A DNA stretch of 64,000 nt from Candidatus Poseidoniaceae archaeon (lineage in GTDB: Archaea; Thermoplasmatota; Poseidoniia; Poseidoniales; Poseidoniaceae). Numbering within the stretch: the first letter of the stretch is position 1; each line of letters begins with the position of its first letter. Positions 15,064-53,309 of this stretch are shown here, one piece after another. The notes beneath the pieces were generated by a model. That model did no database searches. It had not been told where the DNA came from and saw only the letters and a program-made list of their open reading frames with translations. Position numbers and translations under genes: made by a program. Location: NCBI GenBank assembly GCA_938075675.1, contig CALJHE010000006.1, positions 62,001 through 126,000 of the forward strand, read 5' to 3'.

Positions 15064-15585
15064 TCAATCGCCTCCTGTGCCTAATTCGTGTTTGAGCTGC
15101 TGTTGTTTTTCATCGTATGCTTTTCGCATCATGAGATACGCTGCAGGCTGGCCTGCCCACACTTGGTTTTCCGGTAAATGCTTGGTGAGGGTAGAACCTG
15201 CACCGAGCACCGCTCCTTCACCAACATGACACCCGGGTAAGACCGTTGCACCTCCTCCTATGACAGCATTTTTCCCAACATTAATCGACTGCCATTGTTG
15301 TGGATTCTGTGAAGGTGGATATTTATCGTTTAACAGAGTTGCATTCGGTCCGATGAATACGCCATCGGCAAGATTGCAACCGTCGGCGATGTAAGCGCCA
15401 CCCTGTATTCGGCATCCGTCGCCGAGTGTGACGTTTCGACCGATATGGGCCAACGAGCCGATCGAGCAGGATGAACCAATTTCTGTGCCTTTGCCGATGT
15501 GGCAGGGAGACCAAGCCACTGATTCGTTACCCAAATCGATTCGGGTTCCGCTCAATGTGGCCTCAATTGGCATCGAATCCCTCAT
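15064..15585 (-). CDS. Hexapeptide-repeat acyltransferase
   Basis: 173 residues from an ATG that shares an ATGA overlap with the peroxiredoxin stop. The whole protein is left-handed beta-helix repeats of the [LIV]-G-x4 type (IGKGTEIGSSCSIGSLAHIG, VGEGAVLGAGSTLT), ending in the trimer-typical VWAGQPAAYLMM. Family members acetylate sugars or aminosugars on nucleotide carriers using acetyl-CoA; the acceptor here is unknown. The open frame reaches back to 15699, but that part overlaps the peroxiredoxin and lacks hexapeptide pattern. Together with the upstream SDR it could serve surface-glycan synthesis, which is inference. Confidence 0.85.
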   Translation of the reverse strand: MRDSMPIEATLSGTRIDLGNESVAWSPCHIGKGTEIGSSCSIGSLAHIGRNVTLGDGCRIQGGAYIADGCNLADGVFIGPNATLLNDKYPPSQNPQQWQSINVGKNAVIGGGATVLPGCHVGEGAVLGAGSTLTKHLPENQVWAGQPAAYLMMRKAYDEKQQQLKHELGTGGD

Positions 15586-16067
15586 TCTCCGAGACCGAGT
15601 TCTCTCATGAGCATACCAACGTGCCCCTTGGCCTTGACATTGTATCGAAGCCAAGCGAACGTTCCATCGGGTGAGACAACAAATGTCGAGCGAGAACATC
15701 CCATGTACTCTCGGCCGTAGTTCTTTTTCAATCGCCAGGTTCCGAACTTTTCATGCAGTTCACCGTCACGATCCATGAGGAGTGGGAAATTCAGTTCTTG
15801 TTTTGAAATGAACTTTTCATGTGAGCCTTCTGAGTCTTTAGAGACGCCAAGGACGACGTAACCTTCTGTCGTTAAACGCGCAAGATTGTCTCGAAAGTCA
15901 CATGCCTGTGTTGTGCAACCCGGAGTGGAATCACGAGGGTAGAAGTACAGAATGACTGTTTTTCCGTCCGCTTGATAGGAAGCAGAACTGTGGACATTAC
16001 CACTGGAATCTTGACATTCAAATGCAGGTGCTGGGTTGCCGACTTCGTGCGTTATTGCGTCGCTCAT
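15582..16067 (-). CDS. bcp: Thioredoxin-dependent peroxiredoxin, BCP/PrxQ type
   Basis: About 161 residues. It reduces hydrogen peroxide and organic peroxides. The active-site segment is YFYPRDSTPGCTTQACDF: the peroxidatic cysteine is in PGCT and a second cysteine follows five residues later, the PrxQ arrangement. The fold continues with VVLGVSKDSEGSHEKF and a GVSPDGTFAW-like end. The ATG at 16067 begins the family-typical part (MSDAITHEVGNPAPAF). An in-frame ATG at 16094 would add nine residues, and neither start has a clear ribosome-binding site. It is the first gene of the trio with the acyltransferase and flavin reductase-like genes. Confidence 0.88.
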   Translation of the reverse strand: MSDAITHEVGNPAPAFECQDSSGNVHSSASYQADGKTVILYFYPRDSTPGCTTQACDFRDNLARLTTEGYVVLGVSKDSEGSHEKFISKQELNFPLLMDRDGELHEKFGTWRLKKNYGREYMGCSRSTFVVSPDGTFAWLRYNVKAKGHVGMLMRELGLGE

Positions 16068-16181: not shown

Positions 16182-16265
16182 TAATGGGTAGAAATTCCTT
16201 CACTTTGGGTTGATGAGGGTGTGGTGACCGATTCTTTCAATAACCGGCAGGTAACAAGGAGTTGC

Positions 16266-16697
16266 ATGGTGGCGGTCCGATTGTCTCGTAGGAGCCGCCG
16301 TTATTCCAAACGAATACAGCGTACTAACACTCGATTTGATTTGCAAACCATCGCTAGCGCAGTCCAAACAGACTTGGACAAGCGGGACATTACCTATGAC
16401 GAAGCCCTCACCCTCGGCAACCTCATTCAAAACCGAGCGGACCAACTCCCTGGAGATACTATTGTTTACGCTGTATCTGACCGTGATGCATATCGTCGTA
16501 CGCTGGAATTGTATCTCCGAGACGCCCTTCTTACGAAGACGGAACAAATGCTCCTCTGGGAGGAACGCCGCCGGCTTGGCATCTCAGACATCGATCACGA
16601 ACGCCTTCTTGAACAACTTCTGATGCAGTGGCGTCGTCAAGGTAAGAAGGTCACCATCGCTCGTTTCGATTCACCAGGAGGTGACCCTTCTGCGTGA
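16266..16697 (+). CDS. Uncharacterised basic, helical protein at the head of the archaellum region
   Basis: 143 residues from an ATG with AAGGAG a few bases upstream; the open frame extends further to a GTG at 16221. The N terminus is strongly basic (RLSRRSRRYSKRIQR), and the rest is predicted helical and charged, with no membrane segment. I recognise no family. It ends inside the start region of the next, very large gene, so translation of the two is probably coupled. It is the first co-directional gene of the block that leads into the archaellum operon. A role in expression or assembly of the neighbouring surface protein is possible but only contextual. Confidence 0.68.
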   Translation: MVAVRLSRRSRRYSKRIQRTNTRFDLQTIASAVQTDLDKRDITYDEALTLGNLIQNRADQLPGDTIVYAVSDRDAYRRTLELYLRDALLTKTEQMLLWEERRRLGISDIDHERLLEQLLMQWRRQGKKVTIARFDSPGGDPSA

Positions 16698-16701
16698 ATC
16701 T

Positions 16702-19700
16702 GTGAGCCGTCAATCCTTGTTGGCAGCGTTGCTTGTGGCACTGTTTGTGTTGCCAATGTACTTGCCATTCGCCAATGCAGAGGATTCCAACAACTCATCG
16801 AGCACATCCGGACGTGCAACGCTTGACTTTTACTTCCGAAACCCACTGCAACTCAGCAATTCCGGTTCCGCTGTGATCGGTTCGAGCCTTTTCCTTGAAC
16901 CAGGTGAACACGTCGTCACTGCAAACATTTCAGCAGTTGGTTCCGGTAACGATGAGCTTTGGTTGGTCTTGCAGCACAAAGGCTCTCCATCCCTTGGATT
17001 TACGGATGTCGATAGCATCGCCATGGGCAGCGTGAGCGGTGCATCAGGGCAAGTTGACCTCACACCCATCTCGTTTTCATGGACTGCAACGAACGGTGCG
17101 GGGCAAGAACTTCGAATTAAATTGGTCTCCACCAAGGAGTCAGGAAACGACCTCCTCAACAACATTCAAGATGTTGGGTTTGCTTTCTCTGTCGAGAATA
17201 AGCACCTTGGAGAAGCAATGGGCAATACATTCCCTGCTGACTCCCCCTCTACCAACAGAATGGCACTGCCCAACGCTATTTCAACGCTCAACACATCGGT
17301 TACCAATTCTGGAGTCAAGCCAATCTCTGCTACGATGACGATTGTCCTTACCGACAACTCGACACCGACTCCCACAGTTATCACCTTCACTTCGGGCACA
17401 GTTACACTCCAACCAGGATCATACCCTGCCTCATCAGGGACTCTCCAGGAATCTGGTGTTCTAAGCGCTGATGTCGATGGCACCACTCTCACTGGCGTTT
17501 GGAATATCTCCGCAACGGTAAAGTTCGATGGTACATCTTGGACTGAAACCGTTGTCGTTCGCGAATCATGGGTGAAGTTTTCTGATTACAATGCAATCGT
17601 CATTGAACCAGCGACACTTGTTGTCGAACCGGGTGACACGACTGCAATCACGTTCGTTGTCAAAAACACCGGTGTCGAAACCGACCTCTTCACAATTTCA
17701 GTTACACAAAACAAGCCATGGGCTGACGTTACTTCCGCTTCTTTTGGCGCCACGCTTCCTGCGGGGTCCATACGCCTCGTTACCCTCGATGTCAATGTTC
17801 CAGCGAATGCAGTTCGTTCGGAAACGGACAAAATTACCATTACGTTCACCTCAGTTAACTCTCCAGACAATTACCAAATTTCGGGAGTAGGCCGTGTGAT
17901 GGTTGGTGATTTCTTCAAAGGCAATGTCACTCTGATCGAAGATTCTACAATCAAGACCATCAATCCGGGTGGCCAAGCTCAGTACATCGCTCAAATCACA
18001 AACAATGGAAGTGTCACAACGACCTACACGTTGACGACTGGGTTATCGGTTGCGACACTCAACTGGACTTGGGAGGTCAGCCCTTCCATCACACCTCCAG
18101 TTGCATCCGGCGCTACAACCCAAGTCGTGGTGACGCTGACCGCTCCTGCAATCCAAAACCCAATCGTTACCAGCGAGTACAACATGGCGGGCGATGAACT
18201 CGATGTCTGGATTCAATGCCAACCTATTGGTGGCGGTGTACCTTCGCAAGATACCGCCCCGATCAAAGTATCACCCGTAATCGTTGTTGACCCAGGTCTG
18301 GATACTGAACCGCAACACCTCTCGGTCGAAGAAATTGAGCAAACACTCACCGGCTCTCAACTTGTTCAAAACATCGATTTGAATTTGCGTGTGATTCACA
18401 ACCTTCCAACATTGCTCACTGAGACCTTGGATGCGACACTCACGACTTCAAAGACCTTCACGGCGTTGAATGAAGGTGGCTTTGGAGAGGCTGACCGTTG
18501 GTCGGTTTCCGTATCAAACCCGCTCTATTCCGGCCTCCTGCCCGGCGACAGTATGAACACCACCTTGGACATTATCGGCCCTCAAGCGAATCAATATCCG
18601 GTTGCCGGCACCTTTGCCGCTTCATTGACCATCACGCCTACACTCAGCGCAGCACTGGTTGGTAGTGGCGTGAATGCAGTCCCTCTTACTCGGAATTACA
18701 CACTTATCATTCCGCAGGTCATCGATGGCGATTTCCTTGACTCAGGTCCATACGATGTACCTGTTGGAGTCGATTATTCGATTCCAATGCGTTTTGCTAA
18801 CACCGGCAACGATGTGGGTTCATATCGCTTGCGAGTCGTAGATAATCTACCTGAAAACTGGACTGCGAACTTCTCTGAAAACGACCAAAATATTTCCAAT
18901 TTGACCGCTGACATTGCAGACGGTACGCTCGATGGCTCCTCAGGTAACGCCGCACACATCCAAGTCGTGACGTTTAACATCCGAACCGACCCTCTCGCAC
19001 CTGCAGGATTAAACCAACCTATAACGGTGCGAATTGAAGATCCAGTTTCAGGCCAACTGATCGGCAGCGAACACGTGTTCTATGTGGTCGTAGGGCAGAT
19101 TTTCAACGGCAGCCTCACACCAACAAATCAGTCACTTGAACTCGACGTCACAGATTCGACCTTTACTTCTATTGTTGTCAAAAACACGGGCAATGCGCCT
19201 GCCGATTACGAGATTTGGTTGGATAATTCCCTGGCCGGCGATGTCGATTTCAACATCGAATCTCCAACATCTTCGAGTCTCTTCATAGCAGCAGGATATG
19301 AAGAAACAATCCGAATCGAGATGAATGCTAACGATAATGCTGACTCCGACGGATTCTACATGACCACTGTATGGGTCTCGACCAACAACGGTCAAATCCT
19401 CCTTTCCTCAAATGTAGTGGCCAACATCACTGAAAACCATTCGATTGGAATAACCGCGCCTGAGCAGATGGCAGTAACTCCTGGTCAAATGGAACAAGTC
19501 GATTTTGACATCATCAATTACGGCAACCTCAAGGAAACAGTCAAAGTCACGTTGGCCGTTGAAGGCAATCTTACACTCTCAATGACGGAACTCACGGAAG
19601 TACTCTCCATCGACCAAACTTATTCTGACAGCGTAAATGTTGCTATCCCAAGCCTTGGCGGAACCGATACGCTTGTCCAGGGCTCAGTTTACAATCTTAC

Positions 19701-21687
19701 CATTACGGCCGTTAATTCGACGACCGGTATTGTCTACAGTACGCACATAGTTCAATTGTTGATACAGCCACTTTTCATCGTTGAATCTTCGGATTGGCCT
19801 GATGTTATGGAGTTCCAACCAAAATCCACTCGCACTTGGGAAGTCACGCTCTTGAACACAGGTAACAAGGATGTCACTGTCAATGCCGTATATGCAATAA
19901 CTCGGCCCGGCCTCTCCAATCTCTCAACCGATTGGGAAATGGTGACTCAACCGTCTTTGATTGTTCTTCCAATCAACACGCCTGTTGTTCACTCGTTCAC
20001 TGCCGTCGGAACCGTCGACCTGCCGCTTCTTTCACTGACTGCAGATTTGACACTGTTCCTTGACCCTACTGAAACTGAAGTGGAAGGCAGCGGTCAATTC
20101 ACAACACAACTGGTTATGTCTCGATTCTTTTCGACGGGCGATATTGGTATTGAACCTGACATTAACAGCGACTTTGTCGATGTTTTCCTTCCGTACACAA
20201 ACATCCCAACTGGGAACGGCAGTGAAGTGGCCTACATGATTGAACTTTGTAACTCCGAACGTCTGTTGAATCTCGAATCGATGGGCCTTTCCGAGTTCGA
20301 GTATTCTTGGAACTTCACGCTCTATGTCGACAAATTTGACGGAACTTCCGATGCCCATCCTCTAAACCTCGACCAAGAATGTGGCCCGACTTCACTTGGC
20401 CCGACTTCGAGATACAACTTGGTAGAGCTTGAAGCATGGAACCCTTCCACCATTCGAATTCAAGCTGAGACGCCTACGAAAGGATTTATTCTTCCCGGCG
20501 ACGGTTGGGACTTGACGTTTAGACTCTACCACCCCGATGAAAACAACGGCTACTCGGTGTATGATGAGGAAACATTCTCGCTGGTTTTGGCAGTGTTTGC
20601 CGATCCAATGATTAAGAGTATCTCTTCGGACGAGGGCCAATTCCAAGAAGGCACTCAAAGCACGATTACAGTCGTTGTCCAAAACGTTGGTTCCGCTACG
20701 GCCCTTGATGTAGTCGTTGACCTGCAATGCGAGGGCCTCACCGTCTCAACCTTGCCTTCAGAAACTCCAACCATGTTAAATCGCTCAGTCAATTCCGGGC
20801 TCAATTACTCAATGATTCCGTTCTTCTTCGCTACTCAAGAACGAACGCTCACATGGGTGGTCACTGCCGATTCTATCGATTGGTGGACTCAGCGCTCTGA
20901 AGCATCATGTGTAGCGTCACTCGATGCTTCATTTATGGAAAACAACGTCGTTTTAAACGATAAAAAGACCTTGAAGGAAGACGTCATTTCATGGTCACCA
21001 GGTGTTTCAGCCAGCTTCGTAGCAGCAGTTACATGCTTACTCGTTTCGATTATCCTCTTCCGCTTAACTTCTCAAAACGATAATTTCCGACTCTTAGCAG
21101 TCTATGCTGGTGTTGTTGGTTTCGGTTTCTCCTTCCACGTATTCCAATTTGCTTGGTGGGGCTTTGTTGTTCTCACACTGGCTGCGTTATGGATTTGGAG
21201 AATGACGTGGAAGAGCACCGACGAATTCCGTCTCCTCCACGAAGACTATCAACGCGCTCGCCGAGGTATTTCGACACTGTATGCAGACCATTTCGAAGAA
21301 CTTGCCAGCAGCCGTCGCCAACTCCGCACAATTCTTGGCATGCCGGTACTTGGTATGCTTGCTATCATTCTGGGCATCCCTCCAATGCTCACCGAGGATC
21401 GGACGAATGTCGTCAGTATAGCGGCCTATGTCATCGTGGTCATGGCAGGTGTTTGGTTCTTGATTAACCGTGCAAACAACATGTACGGCGCTCTTTACGG
21501 TCGTCTCACGGACATCGAGGTGAAGGCCATTCGAATCGAGCGTGACTTGAGCGACCCAGCTCGGTTGTTCAATGAACTCGCAGGAGATGGACTCAACCTT
21601 GAGGACATCTTCGGTTCTGCTGAAGCCTCACAAGCCTTGAATCCTGAGAACTTATTTTCAAACGAGGAGGTGAACGATGATGCTTGA
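16702..21687 (+). CDS. Giant envelope protein with Ig-like (NEW3/CARDB-like) ectodomain and five C-terminal membrane helices
   Basis: About 1660 residues. A signal peptide (LLAALLVALFVLPMYLPFA, ending ANA) precedes some 1400 residues of Thr/Asn-rich Ig-like repeats, recognised by recurring VVKNTG-type strands (FVVKNTGVETDLF, DFDIINYGNLKET, VVVQNVGSATALD). Potential N-glycosylation sequons are abundant. The C-terminal 240 residues are unlike other surface proteins here: five membrane helices, with a charged soluble segment of about 45 residues between helices three and four and an acidic tail. In-frame starts are GTG 16681 (inside the ribosome-binding site), CTG 16690 and GTG 16702. It overlaps the next gene by 11 bases, so it is translationally linked to the archaellum cassette. 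Its function is unknown. Confidence 0.8.
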   Translation: MSRQSLLAALLVALFVLPMYLPFANAEDSNNSSSTSGRATLDFYFRNPLQLSNSGSAVIGSSLFLEPGEHVVTANISAVGSGNDELWLVLQHKGSPSLGFTDVDSIAMGSVSGASGQVDLTPISFSWTATNGAGQELRIKLVSTKESGNDLLNNIQDVGFAFSVENKHLGEAMGNTFPADSPSTNRMALPNAISTLNTSVTNSGVKPISATMTIVLTDNSTPTPTVITFTSGTVTLQPGSYPASSGTLQESGVLSADVDGTTLTGVWNISATVKFDGTSWTETVVVRESWVKFSDYNAIVIEPATLVVEPGDTTAITFVVKNTGVETDLFTISVTQNKPWADVTSASFGATLPAGSIRLVTLDVNVPANAVRSETDKITITFTSVNSPDNYQISGVGRVMVGDFFKGNVTLIEDSTIKTINPGGQAQYIAQITNNGSVTTTYTLTTGLSVATLNWTWEVSPSITPPVASGATTQVVVTLTAPAIQNPIVTSEYNMAGDELDVWIQCQPIGGGVPSQDTAPIKVSPVIVVDPGLDTEPQHLSVEEIEQTLTGSQLVQNIDLNLRVIHNLPTLLTETLDATLTTSKTFTALNEGGFGEADRWSVSVSNPLYSGLLPGDSMNTTLDIIGPQANQYPVAGTFAASLTITPTLSAALVGSGVNAVPLTRNYTLIIPQVIDGDFLDSGPYDVPVGVDYSIPMRFANTGNDVGSYRLRVVDNLPENWTANFSENDQNISNLTADIADGTLDGSSGNAAHIQVVTFNIRTDPLAPAGLNQPITVRIEDPVSGQLIGSEHVFYVVVGQIFNGSLTPTNQSLELDVTDSTFTSIVVKNTGNAPADYEIWLDNSLAGDVDFNIESPTSSSLFIAAGYEETIRIEMNANDNADSDGFYMTTVWVSTNNGQILLSSNVVANITENHSIGITAPEQMAVTPGQMEQVDFDIINYGNLKETVKVTLAVEGNLTLSMTELTEVLSIDQTYSDSVNVAIPSLGGTDTLVQGSVYNLTITAVNSTTGIVYSTHIVQLLIQPLFIVESSDWPDVMEFQPKSTRTWEVTLLNTGNKDVTVNAVYAITRPGLSNLSTDWEMVTQPSLIVLPINTPVVHSFTAVGTVDLPLLSLTADLTLFLDPTETEVEGSGQFTTQLVMSRFFSTGDIGIEPDINSDFVDVFLPYTNIPTGNGSEVAYMIELCNSERLLNLESMGLSEFEYSWNFTLYVDKFDGTSDAHPLNLDQECGPTSLGPTSRYNLVELEAWNPSTIRIQAETPTKGFILPGDGWDLTFRLYHPDENNGYSVYDEETFSLVLAVFADPMIKSISSDEGQFQEGTQSTITVVVQNVGSATALDVVVDLQCEGLTVSTLPSETPTMLNRSVNSGLNYSMIPFFFATQERTLTWVVTADSIDWWTQRSEASCVASLDASFMENNVVLNDKKTLKEDVISWSPGVSASFVAAVTCLLVSIILFRLTSQNDNFRLLAVYAGVVGFGFSFHVFQFAWWGFVVLTLAALWIWRMTWKSTDEFRLLHEDYQRARRGISTLYADHFEELASSRRQLRTILGMPVLGMLAIILGIPPMLTEDRTNVVSIAAYVIVVMAGVWFLINRANNMYGALYGRLTDIEVKAIRIERDLSDPARLFNELAGDGLNLEDIFGSAEASQALNPENLFSNEEVNDDA

Positions 21688-22732
21688 TGAAGAACTCATC
21701 GACCCCTCAGTTGAGGAAAAAACCCTTGATGAAATGCCTCAGTTTGAGGATGAAGTCACCGGTCAATCCTCGAATGCCGCTCCCGTTGACGGGCAAGCAG
21801 ACGTTGGCGAGGAAATACCTCCGTTCCCACCAATGCCTTCGACATCGAGTCCAGAGCGGCCTCTTCCTCGAGATTTAGAGACGATGGTTCTCGGAATTGC
21901 TCAGGACGATACAAATTCACTTGCCGGTACTGAACTTGAAATCAGTGAAGCAAAGAGTTTCTTGCAAACGCACAAGCTACGCCGTGCTCTGTCAAGTGTC
22001 GATAAGGCGGAGTCATCGCTTGCTGTTTTGGAAGAAGACGTGCTGTATTTACGCAGAAACATCGCTATGCTCCACCGTTTACTCAATGAAAAGAAAATCA
22101 GCGAGAACGATATTGAAACTATTCTCCTTCGATTGAGGAGCGCAACAGGTGCAGCAGAAATCGGAGATGTGGGTGGCGCTGCGGGTGAAGTTGAATACCT
22201 TGTAGACGATTTAATCGGTGGAAACACATCGACGCTTAACCCGTTCTTGTTCCGTCATTTCTGGATGGGCCTTGAAACACGATGGCCCGCTGGAGGCGAC
22301 GAAGGTGTCTTGGTCGTCCGCATCATCAACGATGGCCCCGTGGCAATGCCGCCAATGCGGCTCTCTCCACCGGTGCCAGAGGGCTGGGTTTCTACGCCTT
22401 CATCGGTTGACCTGCCAACAATTGCTCCAGGTGGAAACTTGCCAGTTCGATTCAATGTGTCTGCCAACCGCCGTTACGGTGCAGACGAAATACCGTTGTC
22501 ACGTAAATTGGCGATTACGACAGGTTATGAAATCCGTACTGGGGAAGTATTTGTCACCATACGTGCACAAAACCGCTCGATGGAGCCCCTTGCTGATATC
22601 CTTCTCTCGCCTTGGTTCCCGCCAGGCTATACCGCTGACGCAGTTCCATTTGTGGAACGCCTCGCTCCCGACGAAGTGGCAATCATTCGAATCCCACTTC
22701 GCATCACAATGAGTTCTGGAGGTTCTTCCTAA
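21677..22732 (+). CDS. Uncharacterised cytoplasmic protein: acidic linker, coiled coil, beta-sandwich
   Basis: 351 residues, with no signal peptide or membrane helix. The first 75 residues are acidic and Pro-rich (disordered). About 80-180 is helical with heptad character (TELEISEAKSFLQTHKLRRA, SLAVLEEDVLYLRRN). The last 160 residues look like a beta-sandwich (VLVVRIINDGPVAMPPMRL, with later APGGNLPVRFNVSANRRYG). GAGGTG at 21667-21672 precedes tandem ATGs at 21677 and 21680. It overlaps the 3' end of the giant membrane protein gene and lies directly before the archaellins. A cytoplasmic partner of the multi-spanning protein or of the archaellum base is an attractive but unproven guess. Confidence 0.75.
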   Translation: MMLDEELIDPSVEEKTLDEMPQFEDEVTGQSSNAAPVDGQADVGEEIPPFPPMPSTSSPERPLPRDLETMVLGIAQDDTNSLAGTELEISEAKSFLQTHKLRRALSSVDKAESSLAVLEEDVLYLRRNIAMLHRLLNEKKISENDIETILLRLRSATGAAEIGDVGGAAGEVEYLVDDLIGGNTSTLNPFLFRHFWMGLETRWPAGGDEGVLVVRIINDGPVAMPPMRLSPPVPEGWVSTPSSVDLPTIAPGGNLPVRFNVSANRRYGADEIPLSRKLAITTGYEIRTGEVFVTIRAQNRSMEPLADILLSPWFPPGYTADAVPFVERLAPDEVAIIRIPLRITMSSGGSS

Positions 22733-22786
22733 CTCAATCCTTTTCCACCCTACATGGGGGATAAAAATTAAAAAATGGTGAAAAAT

Positions 22787-23326
22787 ATGAAAGAAAATAC
22801 GAACGAAAAAAGCGATAATATCGCTGCTATTGGTATTGGTGCAATGATTGTATTCATTGCATTGATTCTGGTTGCAGCGGTTGCAGCAGCAGTTATTATT
22901 CAAACTGCTGAAAAGTTGCAACAGAATGCACAAACAACCGGTGAAGAAACGACTTCCTTGCTGTCCTCGAAAGTGGTCATCAAGAACGTCATGATTCCTA
23001 CTGCTGGTGAATTGTACATTACCTACGAACTGGCTCCAGGATCGGATACAATCAACCCAGCAAACATTGACTGGAACATTGTCTGTACTGGTGGTGTAGA
23101 TGCTGGAGACTTTACGTCTTCAAGCCTCGTTGGAGTGGCTACTTTGAGTGCCACTCTTGTTCCAGGTTCAACGTACGATGTTACACTTCCAACTGCAACA
23201 CTCGATGACTGTGCTCCTGCGGCAAACGCAGACCACACATTGATTATCCAATCTGGCGCTGGAGGTTTCACGTTTGAAACCTTGAATTATGGTGCTGATG
23301 TTCAACCGGGGGCGAAAGTCATATGA
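22787..23326 (+). CDS. arlB1: Archaellin 1 (major filament protein)
   Basis: 179 residues. Archaellins carry a short class III signal peptide removed by a prepilin-like peptidase, then a hydrophobic helix that forms the filament core. Here the core begins IAAIGIGAMIVFIALILV and runs to the NAQTTG turn, after which a beta-rich exposed domain follows. An ATG at 22775 is also in frame, but starting at 22787 (MKENT) aligns with archaellin 2 (MKSNT) and gives equal leader lengths. An A/T-rich TATA-like stretch lies at 22760-22770. The stop overlaps the start of archaellin 2. The first gene of an archaellum operon is usually the most strongly expressed. Confidence 0.93.
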   Translation: MKENTNEKSDNIAAIGIGAMIVFIALILVAAVAAAVIIQTAEKLQQNAQTTGEETTSLLSSKVVIKNVMIPTAGELYITYELAPGSDTINPANIDWNIVCTGGVDAGDFTSSSLVGVATLSATLVPGSTYDVTLPTATLDDCAPAANADHTLIIQSGAGGFTFETLNYGADVQPGAKVI

Positions 23327-23979
23327 AGTCAAATACTCGTAACGATATTCAAGAAGACAAAATCGCTGCTATCGGTATCGGTGCAATGATTGTCTTTATT
23401 GCTTTGATTTTGGTTGCTGCAGTCGCTGCAGCTGTCATCATTCAAACAGCAGAAAAACTCCAACAAAATGCTCAAACCACTGGTGATGACACTGCCGACA
23501 ACATGGCAGGAAAGGTCCTCATTTCAGCTGGCTTTGTTGCAAACGGAGGTGCCGGAAACGACGTCGATAATGCTTTCTCATTAACTGAAGCATACATGTT
23601 CCACGTCCGTCTCGCTCCTGGTAGCGAACCTGCACCTCTCGACGAAATTTCGTTCCAGTTCTTCTGTGACGATGGTGTTGTTGAAGGATTCATTGGAGAC
23701 CCTGATGGTGCTGGAGTTGCGTTCACCGCAAGCGGTGCTGTTGCTGATATGGACGAAGATGAGCCAGATAACAATGCTTTAGATTCCGCAACTGGAATCA
23801 TGAATCCAGGGACTGGATACACTATGTGGATCGATGCTAACGACAACGCAAACGCTGTTGATTGCAGTGCTGCAGGCGGAGATTCGACGGTTCAACTTTA
23901 CCTTCACGTCGGTAGCGGCGGTACAACCTTCCAAACCTTGGACATCGGAAACACAGCTGCTGGAAGCGAAGTCATCTGA
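23323..23979 (+). CDS. arlB2: Archaellin 2
   Basis: 218 residues, starting with an ATGA overlap on archaellin 1. The leader MKSNTRNDIQEDK is followed by the same core helix as archaellin 1, identical from IAAIG to NAQTTG at protein level. The outer domain differs: it is longer and more acidic, with Ala/Asp/Asn-rich loops such as VADMDEDEPDNNALD. Paired archaellins of this kind can form mixed filaments or separate segments. A hairpin lies just after the stop and may set the archaellin-to-motor transcript ratio. Confidence 0.93.
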   Translation: MKSNTRNDIQEDKIAAIGIGAMIVFIALILVAAVAAAVIIQTAEKLQQNAQTTGDDTADNMAGKVLISAGFVANGGAGNDVDNAFSLTEAYMFHVRLAPGSEPAPLDEISFQFFCDDGVVEGFIGDPDGAGVAFTASGAVADMDEDEPDNNALDSATGIMNPGTGYTMWIDANDNANAVDCSAAGGDSTVQLYLHVGSGGTTFQTLDIGNTAAGSEVI

Positions 23980-23987
23980 TTGCATCT

Positions 23988-24021
23988 AAGGGCGCCAATG
24001 CTGAAAGGCGTTACAGCCCTT
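23988..24021 (+). terminator. Intra-operon hairpin after the archaellins
   Basis: AAGGGC at 23988-23993 pairs with GCCCTT at 24016-24021, with a possible inner GCC/GGC stem. It sits between the second archaellin and the next gene, where partial termination or processing would keep archaellin mRNA in excess over motor mRNA. There is no T tract, so a processing or stability role is as likely as termination. Confidence 0.4.
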
Positions 24022-24034
24022 GGGAGGATTTATC

Positions 24035-24883
24035 ATGGCATGGCCATTTAGCGGTAACGCAGATAAAAACAGAGATGCAGATGCAGACCTTACGGAGGAA
24101 CGACTGAAGATTATGGCGAACATCGCCATTGAACAAGTCCCTCTTCCCGAAGAAGGAGAGCTCAGCGAAGACGATGCATGGACAATCAGTCCAAGTCCGA
24201 CTCGAGCTCGTATGAACAGCGTTGGGAGTGTTCCAACAGTAGCGGCAACTCTTGCCCCTTCATCACCTGTTCCAACGAGCACAACCGTCGACACTTCTGG
24301 ATTAGAACGTCTCATCAGCAGTCGCCTCGACATGGTCGAGGACGTTCTGAGGATGGTGGAAGTTCGGTTGGATACCCCGCAAGCAACCCCTACTGTGGAT
24401 GCTGAAGGAAATCCAGTCGCCATGTCTGAACTGGCTAGAGATGAATCCATGATGAGCGGAGACACCATTGTCACTGCAAGTGGCGAAGTCATCTCTGCGG
24501 CCGGCATGGACCGTCTCAAGAGCGTTGATGAAGCCCCATTGGTCGAATTGTATGAAGCACAAGCACTCGCTGCAAATCCATTCTTGCACGCCCCCTCAAC
24601 CGGTGCGACAGCGAATGCGAACCAAGTCGGTGCGCCAACCGTTTCAGCCTTACTTCTTGACAGTATGTCGGGAATGGCTGCGGTTAGTTTTGCTCAGAAA
24701 GCAATGTCTTCCGGTATGTTGACTGAACAGGAAGGGCGTGCAGTCCTTGCTATTGTTCAATTGGCAGAACCTGGTGAATCAGAAGCAGCGTTAGACGACC
24801 ATTTGTCGCACAAGGAATTGCTGGTCTTTTCGTCATTGATTAGTTCATGGCGTCAAGTTCAGTCGCTTCGAGGTGAACTCTGA
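24035..24883 (+). CDS. Uncharacterised archaellum-operon protein in the ArlC/D/E position
   Basis: 282 residues from an ATG with GGGAGG seven bases upstream. It has no membrane helix. The N-terminal part is acidic, followed by a Thr/Pro/Ser linker, a short amphipathic helix pair (DTSGLERLISSRLDMVEDVL), and a helical C-terminal domain of about 110 residues (APTVSALLLDSMSGMAAVSF). In other Euryarchaeota the genes between archaellins and ArlF encode ArlC, ArlD and ArlE, which form the cytosolic ring coupling the motor to CheF. I see no clear ArlE signature, so it is a positional equivalent at best. It ends one base before the arlF start codon. Confidence 0.72.
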   Translation: MAWPFSGNADKNRDADADLTEERLKIMANIAIEQVPLPEEGELSEDDAWTISPSPTRARMNSVGSVPTVAATLAPSSPVPTSTTVDTSGLERLISSRLDMVEDVLRMVEVRLDTPQATPTVDAEGNPVAMSELARDESMMSGDTIVTASGEVISAAGMDRLKSVDEAPLVELYEAQALAANPFLHAPSTGATANANQVGAPTVSALLLDSMSGMAAVSFAQKAMSSGMLTEQEGRAVLAIVQLAEPGESEAALDDHLSHKELLVFSSLISSWRQVQSLRGEL

Positions 24884-24884
24884 T

Positions 24885-25589
24885 ATGGGCGCTTCGGTCG
24901 GAATTGGAGGTCTCATTGTTGGGATCTCAATGCTGGTGGTCTTTTCAATGGCCATTTCAGCTTTGGACGCACAGGTTGCAACCGGTTTGGATGCAATCGA
25001 AAGCGCCTCAGTTCCAGACCCAAGTTTTACCATTGACGATGTGAACATTGCTCAGCATGTCATACACGAAGTGTCAATGTCTGCAGGCAACCAAGGAACT
25101 GGATACTTTGACGGGATTTTGAAAGCAAATGTTGGTTCGGATGAATGCGGCGGATTTTCTGCTACATTCACGACAACAGGTGGCGAGATTGATGTAGGAA
25201 ACGTGGTTATCACCAACCACGGTTTCTGCCCAAGTTCTTCTACCCCAACATGGACAATATACAACATGTCCAATGTGATTCAAACACCGACAACTCCTGC
25301 TACTTTCGATGCACCTGTCTTCCATCAATACATCTATGCGAACATAACGAACCAAGGCTCTGAAACGCTGAAAAGTGATGAAGTGTGGGTGTTTTATGAC
25401 GGCGAAGAGCCAGAAACACTTACCGAATCACAAGACTCTCCACAATCAATTCTTGCAGGAGTCAATACCAATTGGTATTCTGGTGAAACATTGCAGTTGT
25501 TTTGGAACGACGAACTCAGTACAAATACCGAATACGAACGTTTGGCAATGACAGTTGGTCCCACGACTTTGGTGCGGTCAACATCTTGA
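24885..25589 (+). CDS. arlF: Archaellar protein ArlF-like (predicted stator/periplasmic subunit)
   Basis: 234 residues. It has a single N-terminal membrane helix preceded by almost no cytoplasmic sequence (MGASVGIGGLIVGISMLVVF), then an extracytoplasmic beta-rich domain with two cysteines (DECGGF, HGFCPSS) that could pair. This is the ArlF/ArlG architecture, in which the ectodomain binds the S-layer and anchors the rotor. The preceding frame opens at a GTG at 24873, but that lies inside the GAGGTG ribosome-binding site, so the ATG at 24885 is the start. The assignment of F rather than G rests on gene order. Confidence 0.78.
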   Translation: MGASVGIGGLIVGISMLVVFSMAISALDAQVATGLDAIESASVPDPSFTIDDVNIAQHVIHEVSMSAGNQGTGYFDGILKANVGSDECGGFSATFTTTGGEIDVGNVVITNHGFCPSSSTPTWTIYNMSNVIQTPTTPATFDAPVFHQYIYANITNQGSETLKSDEVWVFYDGEEPETLTESQDSPQSILAGVNTNWYSGETLQLFWNDELSTNTEYERLAMTVGPTTLVRSTS

Positions 25590-25598
25590 GGTGTTACT

Positions 25599-26105
25599 AT
25601 GGCAGACGGAGGAGCTTCGACATACATTATGCTCATCAGCGCCTTGCTGATTTCGAGTTCTGCCAGTGCAGTCTTGATTCAAGAATGGTCGTCGACTTCT
25701 CAAGTTATCCAAAAACAACAAAGAGGTTTACAACTTTCAGAAGAAGTCGCTATTGATTTTGCAGGTGACCCCATGAACGTCCACATTGACAGGTCTGGAA
25801 CGGACCATGAAATCACCTTTTACATCCTCAACACTGGAGAACATCCAATGGATGAAACCAAAATGCAAGTTCTCATTGACGGCCTTTCTGTGCCTGCTAC
25901 AGGCGTTACTACCTCGTTTTTGGGAACACCCACGCCTACGGTTTGGAATCCCAATGTTTTGCTTGAAGTGGCTGTATCGAACAACACGTTCAACTCATAT
26001 GCAGATAACACCGACATCAGTGTGTTCGTGACCGTTACCTCAGAATATGTCTCCGGACTTACTTCAAGTGCGAGTTTCAATCAAGAGGTGCGTATCAATG
26101 GATGA
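25599..26105 (+). CDS. arlG: Archaellar protein ArlG-like
   Basis: 168 residues. An N-terminal membrane helix (STYIMLISALLISSSASAVL) is followed by a compact beta-sandwich containing FYILNTGEHPMDE, close to the ILNTG/VKNTG strand of the ArlG family. ArlG caps ArlF at the S-layer in Sulfolobus; the equivalent role here is by homology of architecture. GAGGTG at 25588-25593 lies five bases before the ATG. The last eight bases overlap the arlH start, so the two are translationally coupled. Confidence 0.78.
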   Translation: MADGGASTYIMLISALLISSSASAVLIQEWSSTSQVIQKQQRGLQLSEEVAIDFAGDPMNVHIDRSGTDHEITFYILNTGEHPMDETKMQVLIDGLSVPATGVTTSFLGTPTPTVWNPNVLLEVAVSNNTFNSYADNTDISVFVTVTSEYVSGLTSSASFNQEVRING

Positions 26106-26838
26106 GCATGTCAAGGATGACCCTTTTACTGCGGCACACAAGCCAAAGGAAGACGGATTCCCATACGAATTGGAAACCGACTCTCTTGCAGACTCGATGG
26201 GGCTTCGAATGCCGAACCGCTCTCTGTATGTGTTGCAAGGTACTGTCGGTGGCGGAAAGTCACTCATATCTCAACGTCTTGCTTACGGGCTTGCTGAAAA
26301 TGGAGTCAAAGTTCTGGTCATCACGACTGAATTAACAACCCGTGGATGGGTTGAGCAAATGGAATCTCTTGGCTATGGCGTTACTGACGCCATTCGAGAA
26401 GGACGCCTCTTGGTGTTCAGCCGATTTGGAACAATTGCTGAATCATTGCCGGATGTCGGACTCGAAGAAGTTCTTCAATCCGAAGCAATAGAACTCGCAG
26501 ATGTTGTTATCGTCGACTCTGCCAGCTCGATTATGCCAAGTGATCTGGACGATACGAGTCGATTCCAACTCATGCAGCGGCTACGGCAGGTGTGTTCAAA
26601 AGGTCGTTCGTTAATGCTTTGCGTAGATCCAGAAGAAATGGACCACAAACTGATGCACACATTGCGTGCCTCTGCTGAAGTCGTTCTCGACTTGCAAACG
26701 GCAATGATTGGTGGCGAGATTAAGCGAAACATCGTCATCACTCGGTTTTTGAGAGCAGCCGGTCCTATTCAAACATCCATTGGATGGCGAGTTGAACCAG
26801 GAATGGGCTTCATCGTTGACATTACGGCGGTTAGCTGA
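26098..26838 (+). CDS. arlH: Archaellum ATP-binding protein ArlH
   Basis: 246 residues. This is a KaiC/RecA-like fold with Walker A GTVGGGKS and a Walker B region LADVVIVDSASS. ArlH binds ATP and docks on ArlI inside the cytosolic ring, gating filament assembly. GAGGTG at 26085-26090 precedes the ATG by seven bases, and the start is inside the end of arlG. The open frame reaches 26047, but that upstream part is arlG sequence. The length is normal for the family. Confidence 0.93.
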   Translation: MDEHVKDDPFTAAHKPKEDGFPYELETDSLADSMGLRMPNRSLYVLQGTVGGGKSLISQRLAYGLAENGVKVLVITTELTTRGWVEQMESLGYGVTDAIREGRLLVFSRFGTIAESLPDVGLEEVLQSEAIELADVVIVDSASSIMPSDLDDTSRFQLMQRLRQVCSKGRSLMLCVDPEEMDHKLMHTLRASAEVVLDLQTAMIGGEIKRNIVITRFLRAAGPIQTSIGWRVEPGMGFIVDITAVS

Positions 26839-26850
26839 TGAGGTGTTATG

Positions 26851-28569
26851 ATGGTCGATGAAGAACTCAAGTTTGCTCGTGGCGACCTCAACGGGGTCAT
26901 GAATGCACATCCTCACGTCGCTGAATGGGTGCGTGACTTTGAATCAAGCCATGGTTCACGCCCAATTTATTACGGTCCTTTGGACCGCGGGGCGAAAAAA
27001 GAACGGCCATACAATCTCATTTATATCACCAAAGAACCAATTTTTGTACACATTTACGAACCTCCGGCAGATGAAGAAGGTGGAGGTCAGATTCTTTGGT
27101 TTGGGCTCGAACCTCAACTTTCCGAAGAAGAAGAAAACATCCGCCGTGGTCTAATTGAAACACTACTCCAAGAGGCTCCAACCGCGCCTTCATTCACTAC
27201 CGATGACGAATTCGAAAACATACTCTCTCAGATGATTGAACGATACACGCTCCTCGATACTGAAGCACTTACCAATGTACGCCGCCAAGGGCGCTTCTGG
27301 GAAATGCTGGGTATGGATGACAAGCGTCTCATTGTCACTGAAGCCCAACGAGAACGACTACGCTACATTGTCGTTCGAGATTTAATCCGTAACGGCCCAC
27401 TTGAACCACTTCTCTCCGATGAGATGCTGGAAGATATTCACTCGATTGGATTGAAGCACGTACACATGGACCACAAAGTGTTTGGAATGGTAACATCCAA
27501 CATTCGGTTCCGTGATCGAGAACTTCTTTCCCGCTTTTTACGCGCAATGTCTGAAAGAATTGGGCGACCTGTTTCAGACAACAAACCGATTATTGATGGT
27601 GCACTGCTCGACGGTTCACGTATAAACATTATTTTCTCTGACGACGTTTCAATGCTCGGTCCGTCGTTTACTATCCGTAAGTTCGCTGAAGAAACCATCT
27701 CGATTACACAACTCATTGCTTGGGGTACATTATCTTCACAGGTTGCTGCTTACATTTGGATTTGCCTTGAATACGGTATGTCTGTACTTGTGTCTGGAGA
27801 AACAGCATCCGGTAAAACCACTACACTCAATGCTATTCTGCCGTTCATAGACCACAACGTTAAGATTTACTCTGCAGAAGATACGCCTGAAGTGAAGGTG
27901 CGACACAAGATTTGGCAACGACTCGTTACTCGTTCATCGAAGAACGAGGAATCTCGTGTCGAAATGTTCGATTTGCTCAAGGCAGCTCTACGTAGCCGCC
28001 CACGGTACATCATCATCGGTGAAATTCGTGGTGTTGAAGGTGCAACTGCTTTCCAGGCTATGCAGACAGGCCACCCAGTTATTGCAACATTCCACGCTTC
28101 ATCCATTGTCAAAATGATTCAAAGATTTACTGGTGACCCGATTAACGTTCCAATTCGCTTTTTCGACAACCTGAACTTTGCAATTTTCCAAGAAGTTGTT
28201 GAAGCACCTGGTGGCGGAATTGCTCGACGTGTTACTGGAATCGACGAGGTTATCGGTTACAACAAGCACAGCGATGGTGTACTCACCCGTGGAATGTTCG
28301 AATGGGATCCTGTCAAGGACAAGCACTATTTCCGTGGTATGTTCCAAAGCCACCTGCTGGAAAATAAAATTGCAGCAATGGCTGGGTTCTCGAACAAGCG
28401 TGACATTTACGATGAAATGCTGAAGAGAGCCGCTGCACTTGACAGAATGGTGGAACGAGAATTGACGCATTATGATGACGTCTTCGATTTGATTGGCATC
28501 TACTACAACAACGGATGGGAACACTTTGACAAAGCCGTAGATACATGGACTGGAGTAAACCATACGTGA
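26851..28569 (+). CDS. arlI: Archaellum motor ATPase ArlI
   Basis: 572 residues. This is a type II/IV secretion superfamily hexameric ATPase that drives both archaellum assembly and rotation. Walker A is GETASGKTTTLNA, the Asp-box region follows at IYSAEDTPEVKV, and the Walker B/His-box region reads IIIGEIRGVEGATAFQAM then GHPVIATFHASS. The N-terminal 200 residues form the usual variable domain. Tandem ATGs lie at 26848 and 26851; the second has the five-base spacing to GAGGTG (26840-26845) seen in neighbouring genes. It lies 9-12 bases after arlH and 11 before arlJ. Confidence 0.95.
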   Translation: MVDEELKFARGDLNGVMNAHPHVAEWVRDFESSHGSRPIYYGPLDRGAKKERPYNLIYITKEPIFVHIYEPPADEEGGGQILWFGLEPQLSEEEENIRRGLIETLLQEAPTAPSFTTDDEFENILSQMIERYTLLDTEALTNVRRQGRFWEMLGMDDKRLIVTEAQRERLRYIVVRDLIRNGPLEPLLSDEMLEDIHSIGLKHVHMDHKVFGMVTSNIRFRDRELLSRFLRAMSERIGRPVSDNKPIIDGALLDGSRINIIFSDDVSMLGPSFTIRKFAEETISITQLIAWGTLSSQVAAYIWICLEYGMSVLVSGETASGKTTTLNAILPFIDHNVKIYSAEDTPEVKVRHKIWQRLVTRSSKNEESRVEMFDLLKAALRSRPRYIIIGEIRGVEGATAFQAMQTGHPVIATFHASSIVKMIQRFTGDPINVPIRFFDNLNFAIFQEVVEAPGGGIARRVTGIDEVIGYNKHSDGVLTRGMFEWDPVKDKHYFRGMFQSHLLENKIAAMAGFSNKRDIYDEMLKRAAALDRMVERELTHYDDVFDLIGIYYNNGWEHFDKAVDTWTGVNHT

Positions 28570-28580
28570 GGTGATGTCGA

Positions 28581-30383
28581 ATGCAGCGAATGTCTTACTG
28601 GCAAATCGCCCTTCGTCGCGTTGAGATTCCTGTCGGTCAATTCCTTCTCTTTTACGTCGGTGGCGCAGCCATTGCCGGATTCTTGTTTTCTTTCCTTCTT
28701 ATTTTCCTCACCGGTGGTCTTGCAGAAGGTGCACTGTTTTCTGGTGCTGCTGGAATTCTTCTCATTCTTCTTTTACCCATTCTGGCAGGTGGTGCAGCAG
28801 CAGCATATCCATTGCTCGATGTTCAACGGTCTGCAACCTTGATTGAGAAAGAGATGCACATGTTCATCACTCGAATGGGTATTTTATCGCTCGGTGAAGT
28901 AGGTGCTCAATCTATTTTCGATATTCTCAAACAAATGAGTGATTACGGTGAGTTGGCGAATGAAGTCAAACGAATTGAAACACTTGTTGACAAATGGCAC
29001 ACTTCTCTCCCAGAGGCATCTCGTATTGTGGCACAACAAAGCCCTAGTCCGCTATGGGCAGATTTCCTCGATAGGATGGCGTTTTCCATTGAAGCAGGCC
29101 AAGCCATCGATGAGTTCATGCGTTCTGAGCAAGAGACCGTCGCTGAACAATACACCACTCTCTACGATACTCGCCTTGAATCTGTAGATACCATGAAGGA
29201 AATCTACGTTTCATTGGTTTCAGCAGGATTGTTTGGGCTCGTTATTGCCGGAATCCACTTGGTCCTGTTCGAAGTTGGCTCAGCCACTGATACTCCGATT
29301 ATGGTGGCCAGTCGACTGAGATTCATTCTTTTGGCATCACTCGTCTTTACGATTATCCAAGTCGCTGCAGTCTTTGCGTTTAGAGCGACAGTACCCGAAG
29401 ATCCAACTTTTGCTCGTGATGAAATGGATACGCCGTTCCGACTTAATTTCTTCCGAGCACTTGTCGGAGCCAGTATTCTCACCAGTTTCTTAACCGTCAT
29501 TATGGTCATCCTACTTGCTGCATCGTGGGAGGCAGTTACCAATCAATGGGACCGATACGGTCTCATTTTCATAGCCGCCCCTCTTTCACCCATGCTGATT
29601 CCAGCTATTATGATTGGAAGAGAAGAACGCCAAGTGCTGCGAAGAGACGAGACGTATCCCGACTTTATTCGGGCCTTGGGTGGTACGGCACAGGCTCGTT
29701 CATCTGAACCATCAGCCACCATCAAAGCCTTGCGAGGGATTGACTTTGGTATGCTCGACCGTTCTATCGACCGATTGGAAAAGCGTCTGTCCACTCGTAT
29801 TGATTCCGATCGAGCTTGGGACTACTTCAACGCAGATACCAATTCTGCTGTTATCTCCCGCTACACACGCATCTACATCGAAGGTTCACAATCGTCAGGT
29901 AAGCCAGCAGACACCGCTGAGATGGTTTCCCGCTCAGTAGGAAGTTTGCTTTCATTACGAAGGAGAAGGTCCCTCTCAGCCAATACCATGCGCGGTGTCG
30001 CACTTGGTCTGCTCATTGCTTCAGTGACCAGTCTCAACGTTACCATTGCTATTGTCCTCAAGCTCGGCGATTCTATTGCAGGTGTTGCTGAAAACTTCAC
30101 TGATACGGATGTCAGTGCTTTGGCTGAATTCGGCGCCGGGTTGGCTCTTCCAGTCATGGAAGATGCTTCAGGAGTTGGAGAAAATATTCGAATGTTCAAG
30201 GTTATCGTTTCCATTCTCATCCTCTTCCAAGTTATCGCAGTCTCCATTATTTCGAATCGGTTGCGAGGAGGAATCTGGACAACCGCTATGGGTCAAGGAA
30301 TTCAACTGCTTTGGGTTGCAGGCATCACTTCATACATCACTTCTATGGTGCTGGAAGCCGCATCTGCTGTGTTTGGCGTTTAA
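28581..30383 (+). CDS. arlJ: Archaellum membrane platform protein ArlJ
   Basis: 600 residues. This is a TadC/GspF-related integral membrane platform that receives torque and archaellin subunits from ArlI. Membrane helices cluster in three groups: near the N terminus (two helices, IAGFLFSFLLIFLTGGLAEG), in the middle (about residues 210-350), and at the C terminus. Two cytoplasmic helical domains lie between them, including DILKQMSDYGELANEVKRI, which is typical of the family. GAGGTG at 28568-28573 precedes the ATG by seven bases. The length fits archaeal ArlJ. Confidence 0.94.
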   Translation: MQRMSYWQIALRRVEIPVGQFLLFYVGGAAIAGFLFSFLLIFLTGGLAEGALFSGAAGILLILLLPILAGGAAAAYPLLDVQRSATLIEKEMHMFITRMGILSLGEVGAQSIFDILKQMSDYGELANEVKRIETLVDKWHTSLPEASRIVAQQSPSPLWADFLDRMAFSIEAGQAIDEFMRSEQETVAEQYTTLYDTRLESVDTMKEIYVSLVSAGLFGLVIAGIHLVLFEVGSATDTPIMVASRLRFILLASLVFTIIQVAAVFAFRATVPEDPTFARDEMDTPFRLNFFRALVGASILTSFLTVIMVILLAASWEAVTNQWDRYGLIFIAAPLSPMLIPAIMIGREERQVLRRDETYPDFIRALGGTAQARSSEPSATIKALRGIDFGMLDRSIDRLEKRLSTRIDSDRAWDYFNADTNSAVISRYTRIYIEGSQSSGKPADTAEMVSRSVGSLLSLRRRRSLSANTMRGVALGLLIASVTSLNVTIAIVLKLGDSIAGVAENFTDTDVSALAEFGAGLALPVMEDASGVGENIRMFKVIVSILILFQVIAVSIISNRLRGGIWTTAMGQGIQLLWVAGITSYITSMVLEAASAVFGV

Positions 30384-52613: not shown

Positions 52614-53309
52614 ATGGGCCCCGTGATGAAAGCGACAGGTGTTTGGAAAATCTATCCATCAGGGGAGTCTACTGTTCAGGCTGTAAAAGGTGTAGATGTC
52701 AGTATTGATGCCGGTGAGATGGTAGCAATCATGGGCGCTTCGGGTTGCGGTAAAACAACCCTTCTCAACATTCTATCCGGAATCGATGAACCTAATTCGG
52801 GTGATGTGCATGTCAACGGAGAACCTCTGTTCGGAATCTCAGACAACAAGCGCACCCGCATGAGGGCAGAATATCTGGGCTTCATTTTTCAAGACTTCAA
52901 TCTGCTACCAGTTCTTTCCGCCGTTGAAAATGTCGAGTTGCCTCTCCTCTTACTCGGGAAATCTGCTTCTGAGGCGCGTAAAGGGGCACTTGAGGCACTC
53001 CAATCGGTTGGTCTCTCCCAAAGGTCGGAACACCTCCCTTCGGAACTTTCAGGCGGTCAACAACAACGAGTTGCAGTAGCACGTGCGCTTGTCCACAACC
53101 CAACGGTAATTCTCTGTGATGAGCCCACCGGTAATCTTGACTCTGTTACCTCCGCAGAAGTTCTTGAGTTGCTCCACAAATTGAACCGTGAACGCAACAC
53201 GACTTTCCTTATCGTGACTCACGATGCGATGATTGCAAAACGATGCACTCGAACTTTGCAGATGTTGGACGGGACGATCGTTGAAGATCGTCGCAATGAG
53301 GAGGAATGA
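52614..53309 (+). CDS. ABC transporter ATPase, LolD/MacB type
   Basis: 231 residues. Walker A GASGCGKTT, Q-loop FIFQDFNLLPVLSAVENVEL, signature LSGGQQQRVAVARALV and Walker B VILCDEPTGNLDS are complete. This is the ATPase class that works with FtsX/MacB permeases to drive extracytoplasmic work. Its stop overlaps the start of the permease gene (ATGA), making one transporter. Confidence 0.93.
   Translation: MGPVMKATGVWKIYPSGESTVQAVKGVDVSIDAGEMVAIMGASGCGKTTLLNILSGIDEPNSGDVHVNGEPLFGISDNKRTRMRAEYLGFIFQDFNLLPVLSAVENVELPLLLLGKSASEARKGALEALQSVGLSQRSEHLPSELSGGQQQRVAVARALVHNPTVILCDEPTGNLDSVTSAEVLELLHKLNRERNTTFLIVTHDAMIAKRCTRTLQMLDGTIVEDRRNEEE

Follow-up and report, generated by a model that had tools for sequence, protein, structure and literature searches.

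Do the three unnamed genes at the head of an archaellum operon in a Poseidoniales (Marine Group II) genome belong to the archaellum, and what might they do there? They lie in a window of 64,000 nt, the whole stretch of DNA analyzed, taken from contig C6; the genome measures 1.89 Mb at 90% completeness, and the nearest named relatives of its archaellum locus come from Candidatus Poseidoniales MAGs. All three are read from the plus strand: a 143-aa soluble protein without family assignment (16266..16697, from an ATG at 16266; a longer GTG form starts at 16221), a 1,668-aa protein that we call the giant (16681..21687), and a 351-aa protein that we call the partner (21677..22732), the last two together being the pair. 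None of them gets a name in an NCBIfam search. The open reading frames agree with a sequence-only reading of this DNA, which had described three co-directional genes leading into the operon and overlapping each other; the overlaps are 17 nt between the first two, if the giant starts at the GTG at 16681, and 11 nt between the giant and partner frames. The large gene is real, although its length, put there at 1660 residues, hinges on the choice of start and is 1,668 aa here, and the 54-base gap to arlB1 stands if that gene begins at the ATG at 22787 but becomes 42 nt with the ATG at 22775. The three frames are not a product of chance, since each is kept as a protein across the order Poseidoniales.

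The operon downstream is that of an archaellum, with arlB, arlH, arlI, and arlJ all present in addition to ArlF- and ArlG-like genes. Reading on along the plus strand, the partner is followed by the archaellin genes arlB1 (22775..23326, start possibly 22787; PF01917, E 9.5e-19) and arlB2 (23323..23979; PF01917, E 3e-20), a 287-aa gene (24020..24883), genes for ArlF-like (24873..25589; NF052590, E 6.5e-6) and ArlG-like (25599..26105; NF052591, E 2.7e-16) stator proteins, both scoring below cut-off, arlH (KaiC-like; 26047..26838), the ATPase gene arlI (26848..28569), the platform gene arlJ (28581..30383; NF004704, E 1e-117), and a 152-aa two-helix gene. The succession of F and then G is that of the euryarchaeal operon type. 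The 287-aa gene has no Pfam hit and is placed only by its ArlC/D/E position and an LYExxxxxNPF motif, which it has in common with the ArlC-ArlD/E fusion found at the same position in other families (motif-level profile match, E 0.009); on position and motif, it probably encodes a strongly diverged ArlC-ArlD/E protein. This candidate stands in an order reported to be without chemotaxis genes. On the minus strand nearby (15064-15699) is a hexapeptide-repeat, gamma-carbonic-anhydrase-like gene, a relative of which adjoins arlB in four Thermoplasmatales-like loci (L184, L185, L186, and L202), so that this gene and the archaellum possibly form an old common neighborhood.

Within Poseidoniales, the pair and the archaellum come and go together. 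The same 194 genomes were searched for the partner (120 positive), archaellin (126), and the giant C-terminus (120). Set against archaellin, partner and giant each gave the same table, with 118 genomes having both, 2 and 8 discordant, and 66 having neither (Fisher p 5e-40, a statistic that ignores relatedness). Discordance is mostly due to assembly breaks: contigs end beside or inside the operon in G013, G025, G043, and G139 and stop inside the giant in G005 and G138, while arlI is present in G086 and G177. G087 and G154 each gave a single archaellin match and no ArlI. We therefore rejected archaellin without partner as a real condition, most such exceptions being contig ends; a weak partner match in G155 was also discarded because it falls in an unrelated gene. 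The order giant, partner, arlB recurs in all Poseidoniales loci in which the region is covered (15 genomes, 12 genera), and where contigs continue, the 287-aa gene, ArlF, ArlG, H, I, and J follow arlB. Overlap of the giant and partner frames is nearly universal among the loci read, and in all archaellum-linked loci measured the two are overlapping or at most 14 nt apart. The conserved synteny with arl genes and the absence from archaellum-less relatives, which the sequence-only reading had offered as checks, are thus borne out for giant and partner within the order.

They are borne out in part for the 143-aa gene. Strong matches to it occur in 106 Poseidoniales genomes, 103 of them with archaellin, and it is missing from the archaellum-bearing genera g13 and g20; it is therefore an archaellum-associated but dispensable accessory. 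In genus g14, an extra gene of 1,054-1,082 aa sits between it and the giant, encoding a single-helix protein with no Pfam match (L053:2580-5828, L054:13992-17156). Elsewhere in the genome under study, on contig C14 (L075:2692-3717), an MreB/salactin-like actin gene lies beside a gene for a zinc-ribbon protein whose C-terminal stretch is common with the 143-aa protein.

A search of 293 Thermoplasmatota genomes with Poseidoniales profiles returned weak relatives outside the order, and reading those loci revealed the giant-partner pair (f-numbers are working family labels). In f11 (L163, L164, L166, L167, L203, and L210) and f28 (L169 and L209), it stands directly before arlB, with a giant of about 1,500 aa that, wherever the gene is whole, has a signal and five helices, with a 320-420-aa partner, and, downstream of arlB, with a Pfam-confirmed ArlC-ArlD/E fusion and then other arl genes. 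In f12, the giant-partner-arlB arrangement is split over two contigs (L073 and L211). The synteny accordingly holds in three further families, and the pair lies upstream of arlB in four lineages, Poseidoniales included. Genome G241 has two differing archaellum loci: in L169 the pair precedes arlB, and in L170 it does not.

Three other archaellum-bearing families, f8, f18, and f26, carry the pair away from the arl genes. It is followed by coiled-coil/zinc-finger genes in f8 and f18 and, in f26, by an opposing gene that by eye reads as enoyl-CoA-hydratase-like, where the contig ends. The coiled-coil genes behind the unlinked pair start with MIKVI(S/D) (L074:6013-11183, L204:5145-8976), and some have DnaJ-like zinc-finger ends by weak Pfam matches; this cluster may be a second system using the pair. 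Outside Poseidoniales, a full-length partner occurs in 13 genomes, and every one of them has archaellum genes: 11 have an ArlI match with E below 1e-139, and in the remaining two, arl genes adjoin the pair. Neither the Poseidoniales nor the Thermoplasmatota search found a full-length partner in a genome lacking archaellum genes, and in the archaellum-less sister group f3 (20 genomes), there was no ArlI and no match to the pair in sampled members.

Outside Poseidoniales, the implication runs one way, in that the pair implies an archaellum. Archaellated families f7, f22, and f25 have only a solitary Ig-domain relative of the partner, and the pair does not precede arlB in the archaellum loci of f8, f15, f17, f19, f22, f24, f25, f30, f32, f34, f38, and f43 or of f27, which is of the Thermoplasmatales type. 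A general archaellum part, present before arlB throughout the phylum, is ruled out by these loci. Association of the pair with the archaellum is strongly supported, and because many other Thermoplasmatota archaella do without it, the pair is a lineage-specific component and not a core one. Tandem ArlI-like ATPase genes within one operon were also seen in this survey (L183, L195, and other f16, f31, and f34 loci).

The architecture of the giant suggests how it is placed in the envelope. A hydrophobic, signal-like N-terminus precedes an exterior part of about 1,400 residues with Ig-like NEW3/CARDB similarity, a class assignment that holds because one NEW3 domain (PF10633; 17623..17823, plus strand) scores above the curated Pfam cut-off (E 5.2e-7, 30.2 bits versus 24.4). 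Sequons of the N-glycosylation type number 27, counted over the whole protein. At about 100 residues per domain, the ectodomain has room for a dozen or more Ig domains, which would form a rod of tens of nanometers. At the end comes a membrane domain (21004..21468, plus strand) that AlphaFold2 models from 39 sequences (mean pLDDT 78) as three helices, a basic loop, and two helices, the last running on into the C-terminal tail; a plain hydropathy scan detects four of the five. Given a cleaved signal, five helices, and the positive-inside rule, the loop and the tail are predicted to face the cytoplasm. The best-conserved 60 residues of the giant (1501-1560; 21181..21360, plus strand) include this loop, with a mean pairwise identity of 0.62 versus 0.31-0.48 in other parts, and the ectodomain diverges faster than the loop.

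The NEW3 hit and the model agree with the Ig-like ectodomain and five C-terminal helices proposed from the sequence. The accompanying statement that the other giant proteins of the window have single-helix anchors is correct for those of 2,148, 2,395, and 1,012 aa, each with one C-terminal helix, but not for a 1,536-aa open reading frame at 53306-57916, which is likewise polytopic. Known families do not account for the membrane domain: Foldseek gave no significant match (best PDB E 0.12), and a Pfam scan found no PF00482 match that would mark an ArlJ/T2SSF protein. The giant also differs from an ArlF/ArlG stator protein, which would show a pilin-like N-terminal helix and a single beta-sandwich.

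The partner has neither signal nor membrane helix. Its AlphaFold2 model (40 sequences, pLDDT 75) comprises a disordered N-terminus, a four-helix TPR-like domain, and two beta-sandwich (Ig/NEW3-like) domains. Of the cytoplasmic coiled-coil partner first proposed, the soluble helical part therefore remains, and the description as merely a coiled coil gives way to a multidomain protein. A Pfam scan detected neither FlaC_arch (PF05377) nor Arch_fla_DE (PF04659) at E <= 1; kinship with ArlC was rejected because ArlC profile matches reflect coiled coil only, and searching the PDB by sequence and by fold for relatives that would hint at a function yielded just generic Ig-fold or helical matches (Ig-fold only for the partner in Foldseek).

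The partners of different lineages are related, and the giants probably are as well. In hhalign, the partner profile of Poseidoniales matches that of f11/f28 across 244 columns (probability 96, E 3e-9). For the giant C-termini of Poseidoniales and f11, the alignment is confined to the last Ig domain and the first helix (E 2e-4, probability 48), with bridging matches in f12 and f18. In an ArlHIJ tree, f11, f28, f12, and f26 fall together and are joined next by f18 and f8; the partner tree has much the same branching save for the fragmentary f12 sequence, which is placed differently. Poseidoniales stand apart in both trees. Since neither tree joins them to the f11 group in particular, a single old linkage followed by losses and two separate recruitments would fit equally well.

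What, then, could the pair do for the archaellum? According to recent reviews, an anchor has to join motor and stator, and how this is achieved where the envelope has no S-layer is an open question (PMC12024892, PMC12448462, PMC13319060). Because the pair accompanies the archaellum in all motile relatives examined and in several distant families, it is probably an overlooked part of motor anchoring. Our preferred reading, held tentatively and at a little under an even chance, is that of a dedicated, lineage-specific component that acts as a static, envelope-spanning anchor or bushing, tying the motor ring in the cytoplasm to the surface of the cell. Copies of the giant would surround the motor, its rod would stiffen or anchor the ArlF/ArlG stator in the outer surface as a bushing or scaffold, and its loop, with the partner, would dock on a static cytoplasmic ring (ArlC/D/E-like) or on ArlJ; such docking and bracing would keep torque from being lost to the motor spinning in the membrane. 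The concentration of conservation in the predicted cytoplasmic loop is in favor of an anchor, and the separation of the pair from arl genes in f8, f18, and f26 is against it. Lack of an S-layer does not by itself require the pair, because S-layer-less Thermoplasmatales swim (PMC12448462) and f27 loci are without it. The wider proposition, that an unrecognized structural anchor module arose early in Thermoplasmatota, was kept in Poseidoniales and several families, and was replaced or lost elsewhere, is possible on a more doubtful footing.

That same conserved loop, with a soluble multidomain partner that would suit an adaptor, also fits a sensory or switch input, in which the giant would serve at the surface as a receptor or a sensor of load and, through its loop and the partner, would influence ArlC/D/E or ArlH. 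The two proteins would then stand in for the chemotaxis system that Poseidoniales lack, these archaea having archaella and no identifiable chemotaxis genes (PMC6461757, PMC6864105). Pfam and NCBIfam, however, detect neither a kinase nor a HAMP, response-regulator, or methyl-accepting domain in giant or partner, and we regard this role as unlikely, although it is the chief competitor of the anchor reading.

The position of the pair immediately upstream of arlB in four lineages would suit an assembly factor that, alongside ArlJ, assists archaellins or stator pilins as they are inserted, held, or exported while the filament is built. Ig-fold proteins are able to serve as pilin chaperones. But the many Thermoplasmatota archaellum loci without the pair and the dissimilarity of the giant membrane domain to ArlJ (T2SSF) make such a function quite improbable.

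Marginally less credible still is that the giant is an adhesin at the archaellum base. For Poseidoniales archaella, adhesion or motility has been proposed (PMC6461757, PMC6336850), flaJ is enriched in particle fractions (PMC6461757), and an adhesin would match the proposed particle attachment; CARDB/NEW3-type Ig repeats are common in adhesins, and the ectodomain is the faster-changing part of the giant. An adhesin, however, has no need of five membrane helices or of a conserved cytoplasmic partner encoded in an overlapping frame, and the giants of the window that have a single helix already resemble surface proteins. Finally, a general cell-surface pair merely cotranscribed with or near archaellum genes would explain its separation from them in f8, f18, and f26 but is very improbable in view of the near-perfect presence/absence match with archaellin in Poseidoniales, the identical order in four lineages, and the restriction of full-length partners to genomes with archaellum genes.

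The anchor reading bears on points left open in recent papers, namely, which part of the archaellum motor is static and what withstands its torque in envelopes possibly lacking an S-layer (PMC12024892, PMC12448462, PMC13319060). The pair belongs to a known machine and is not a new kind of system; it supplies named candidate genes for motor anchoring, predicted to encode a long rod on the exterior, a domain that crosses the membrane several times, and a partner on the cytoplasmic side. It enlarges the archaellum parts list of the phylum Thermoplasmatota, in which Poseidoniales are among the most abundant surface-ocean archaea, and gives two extra marker genes for locating divergent archaellum loci.

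The giant ectodomain falls into the broad class of NEW3/CARDB multi-Ig archaeal surface proteins. A single C-terminal anchor is usual in that class, as in the single-helix giants of the window, whereas the giant ends in a five-helix domain coupled to a cytoplasmic partner. Archaellum synteny of these genes is partly known already, because Fig. 4 of Tully 2019 (PMC6336850), which depicts the motility operon of Marine Group II, includes conserved, syntenic, unannotated genes, very likely the present ones among them; as far as that figure goes, the genes are given no architecture, family assignment, or function and no distribution beyond Marine Group II. The openly searchable literature yielded no account of how the pair is built, of its presence beyond Poseidoniales, or of a role proposed for it. 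VARTIG modules of Thermococcales (PMC8416519) resemble the pair in being operons headed by a large secreted Ig/CARDB protein, but they are hypervariable, recombining, and not described as archaellum linked, whereas the pair is syntenic and slowly varying; we therefore rejected it as a VARTIG module. ArlX and the ArlC/D/E ring, both considered static, are like the partner in having helical cytoplasmic domains encoded in the archaellum operon; the partner has no Pfam match to ArlX, FlaC, or Arch_fla_DE, and in f11 and f28 it occurs alongside an ArlC-ArlD/E fusion. A close counterpart of the giant is the ArlF/ArlG stator, likewise an extracellular beta-sandwich from the archaellum operon and proposed to be a static link between motor and surface (PMC12024892). 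ArlF and ArlG are pilin derived, with one N-terminal helix, and the giant, with its long Ig array and five C-terminal helices, is unrelated to them; it is encoded in addition to the ArlF/G-like genes, not in their place.
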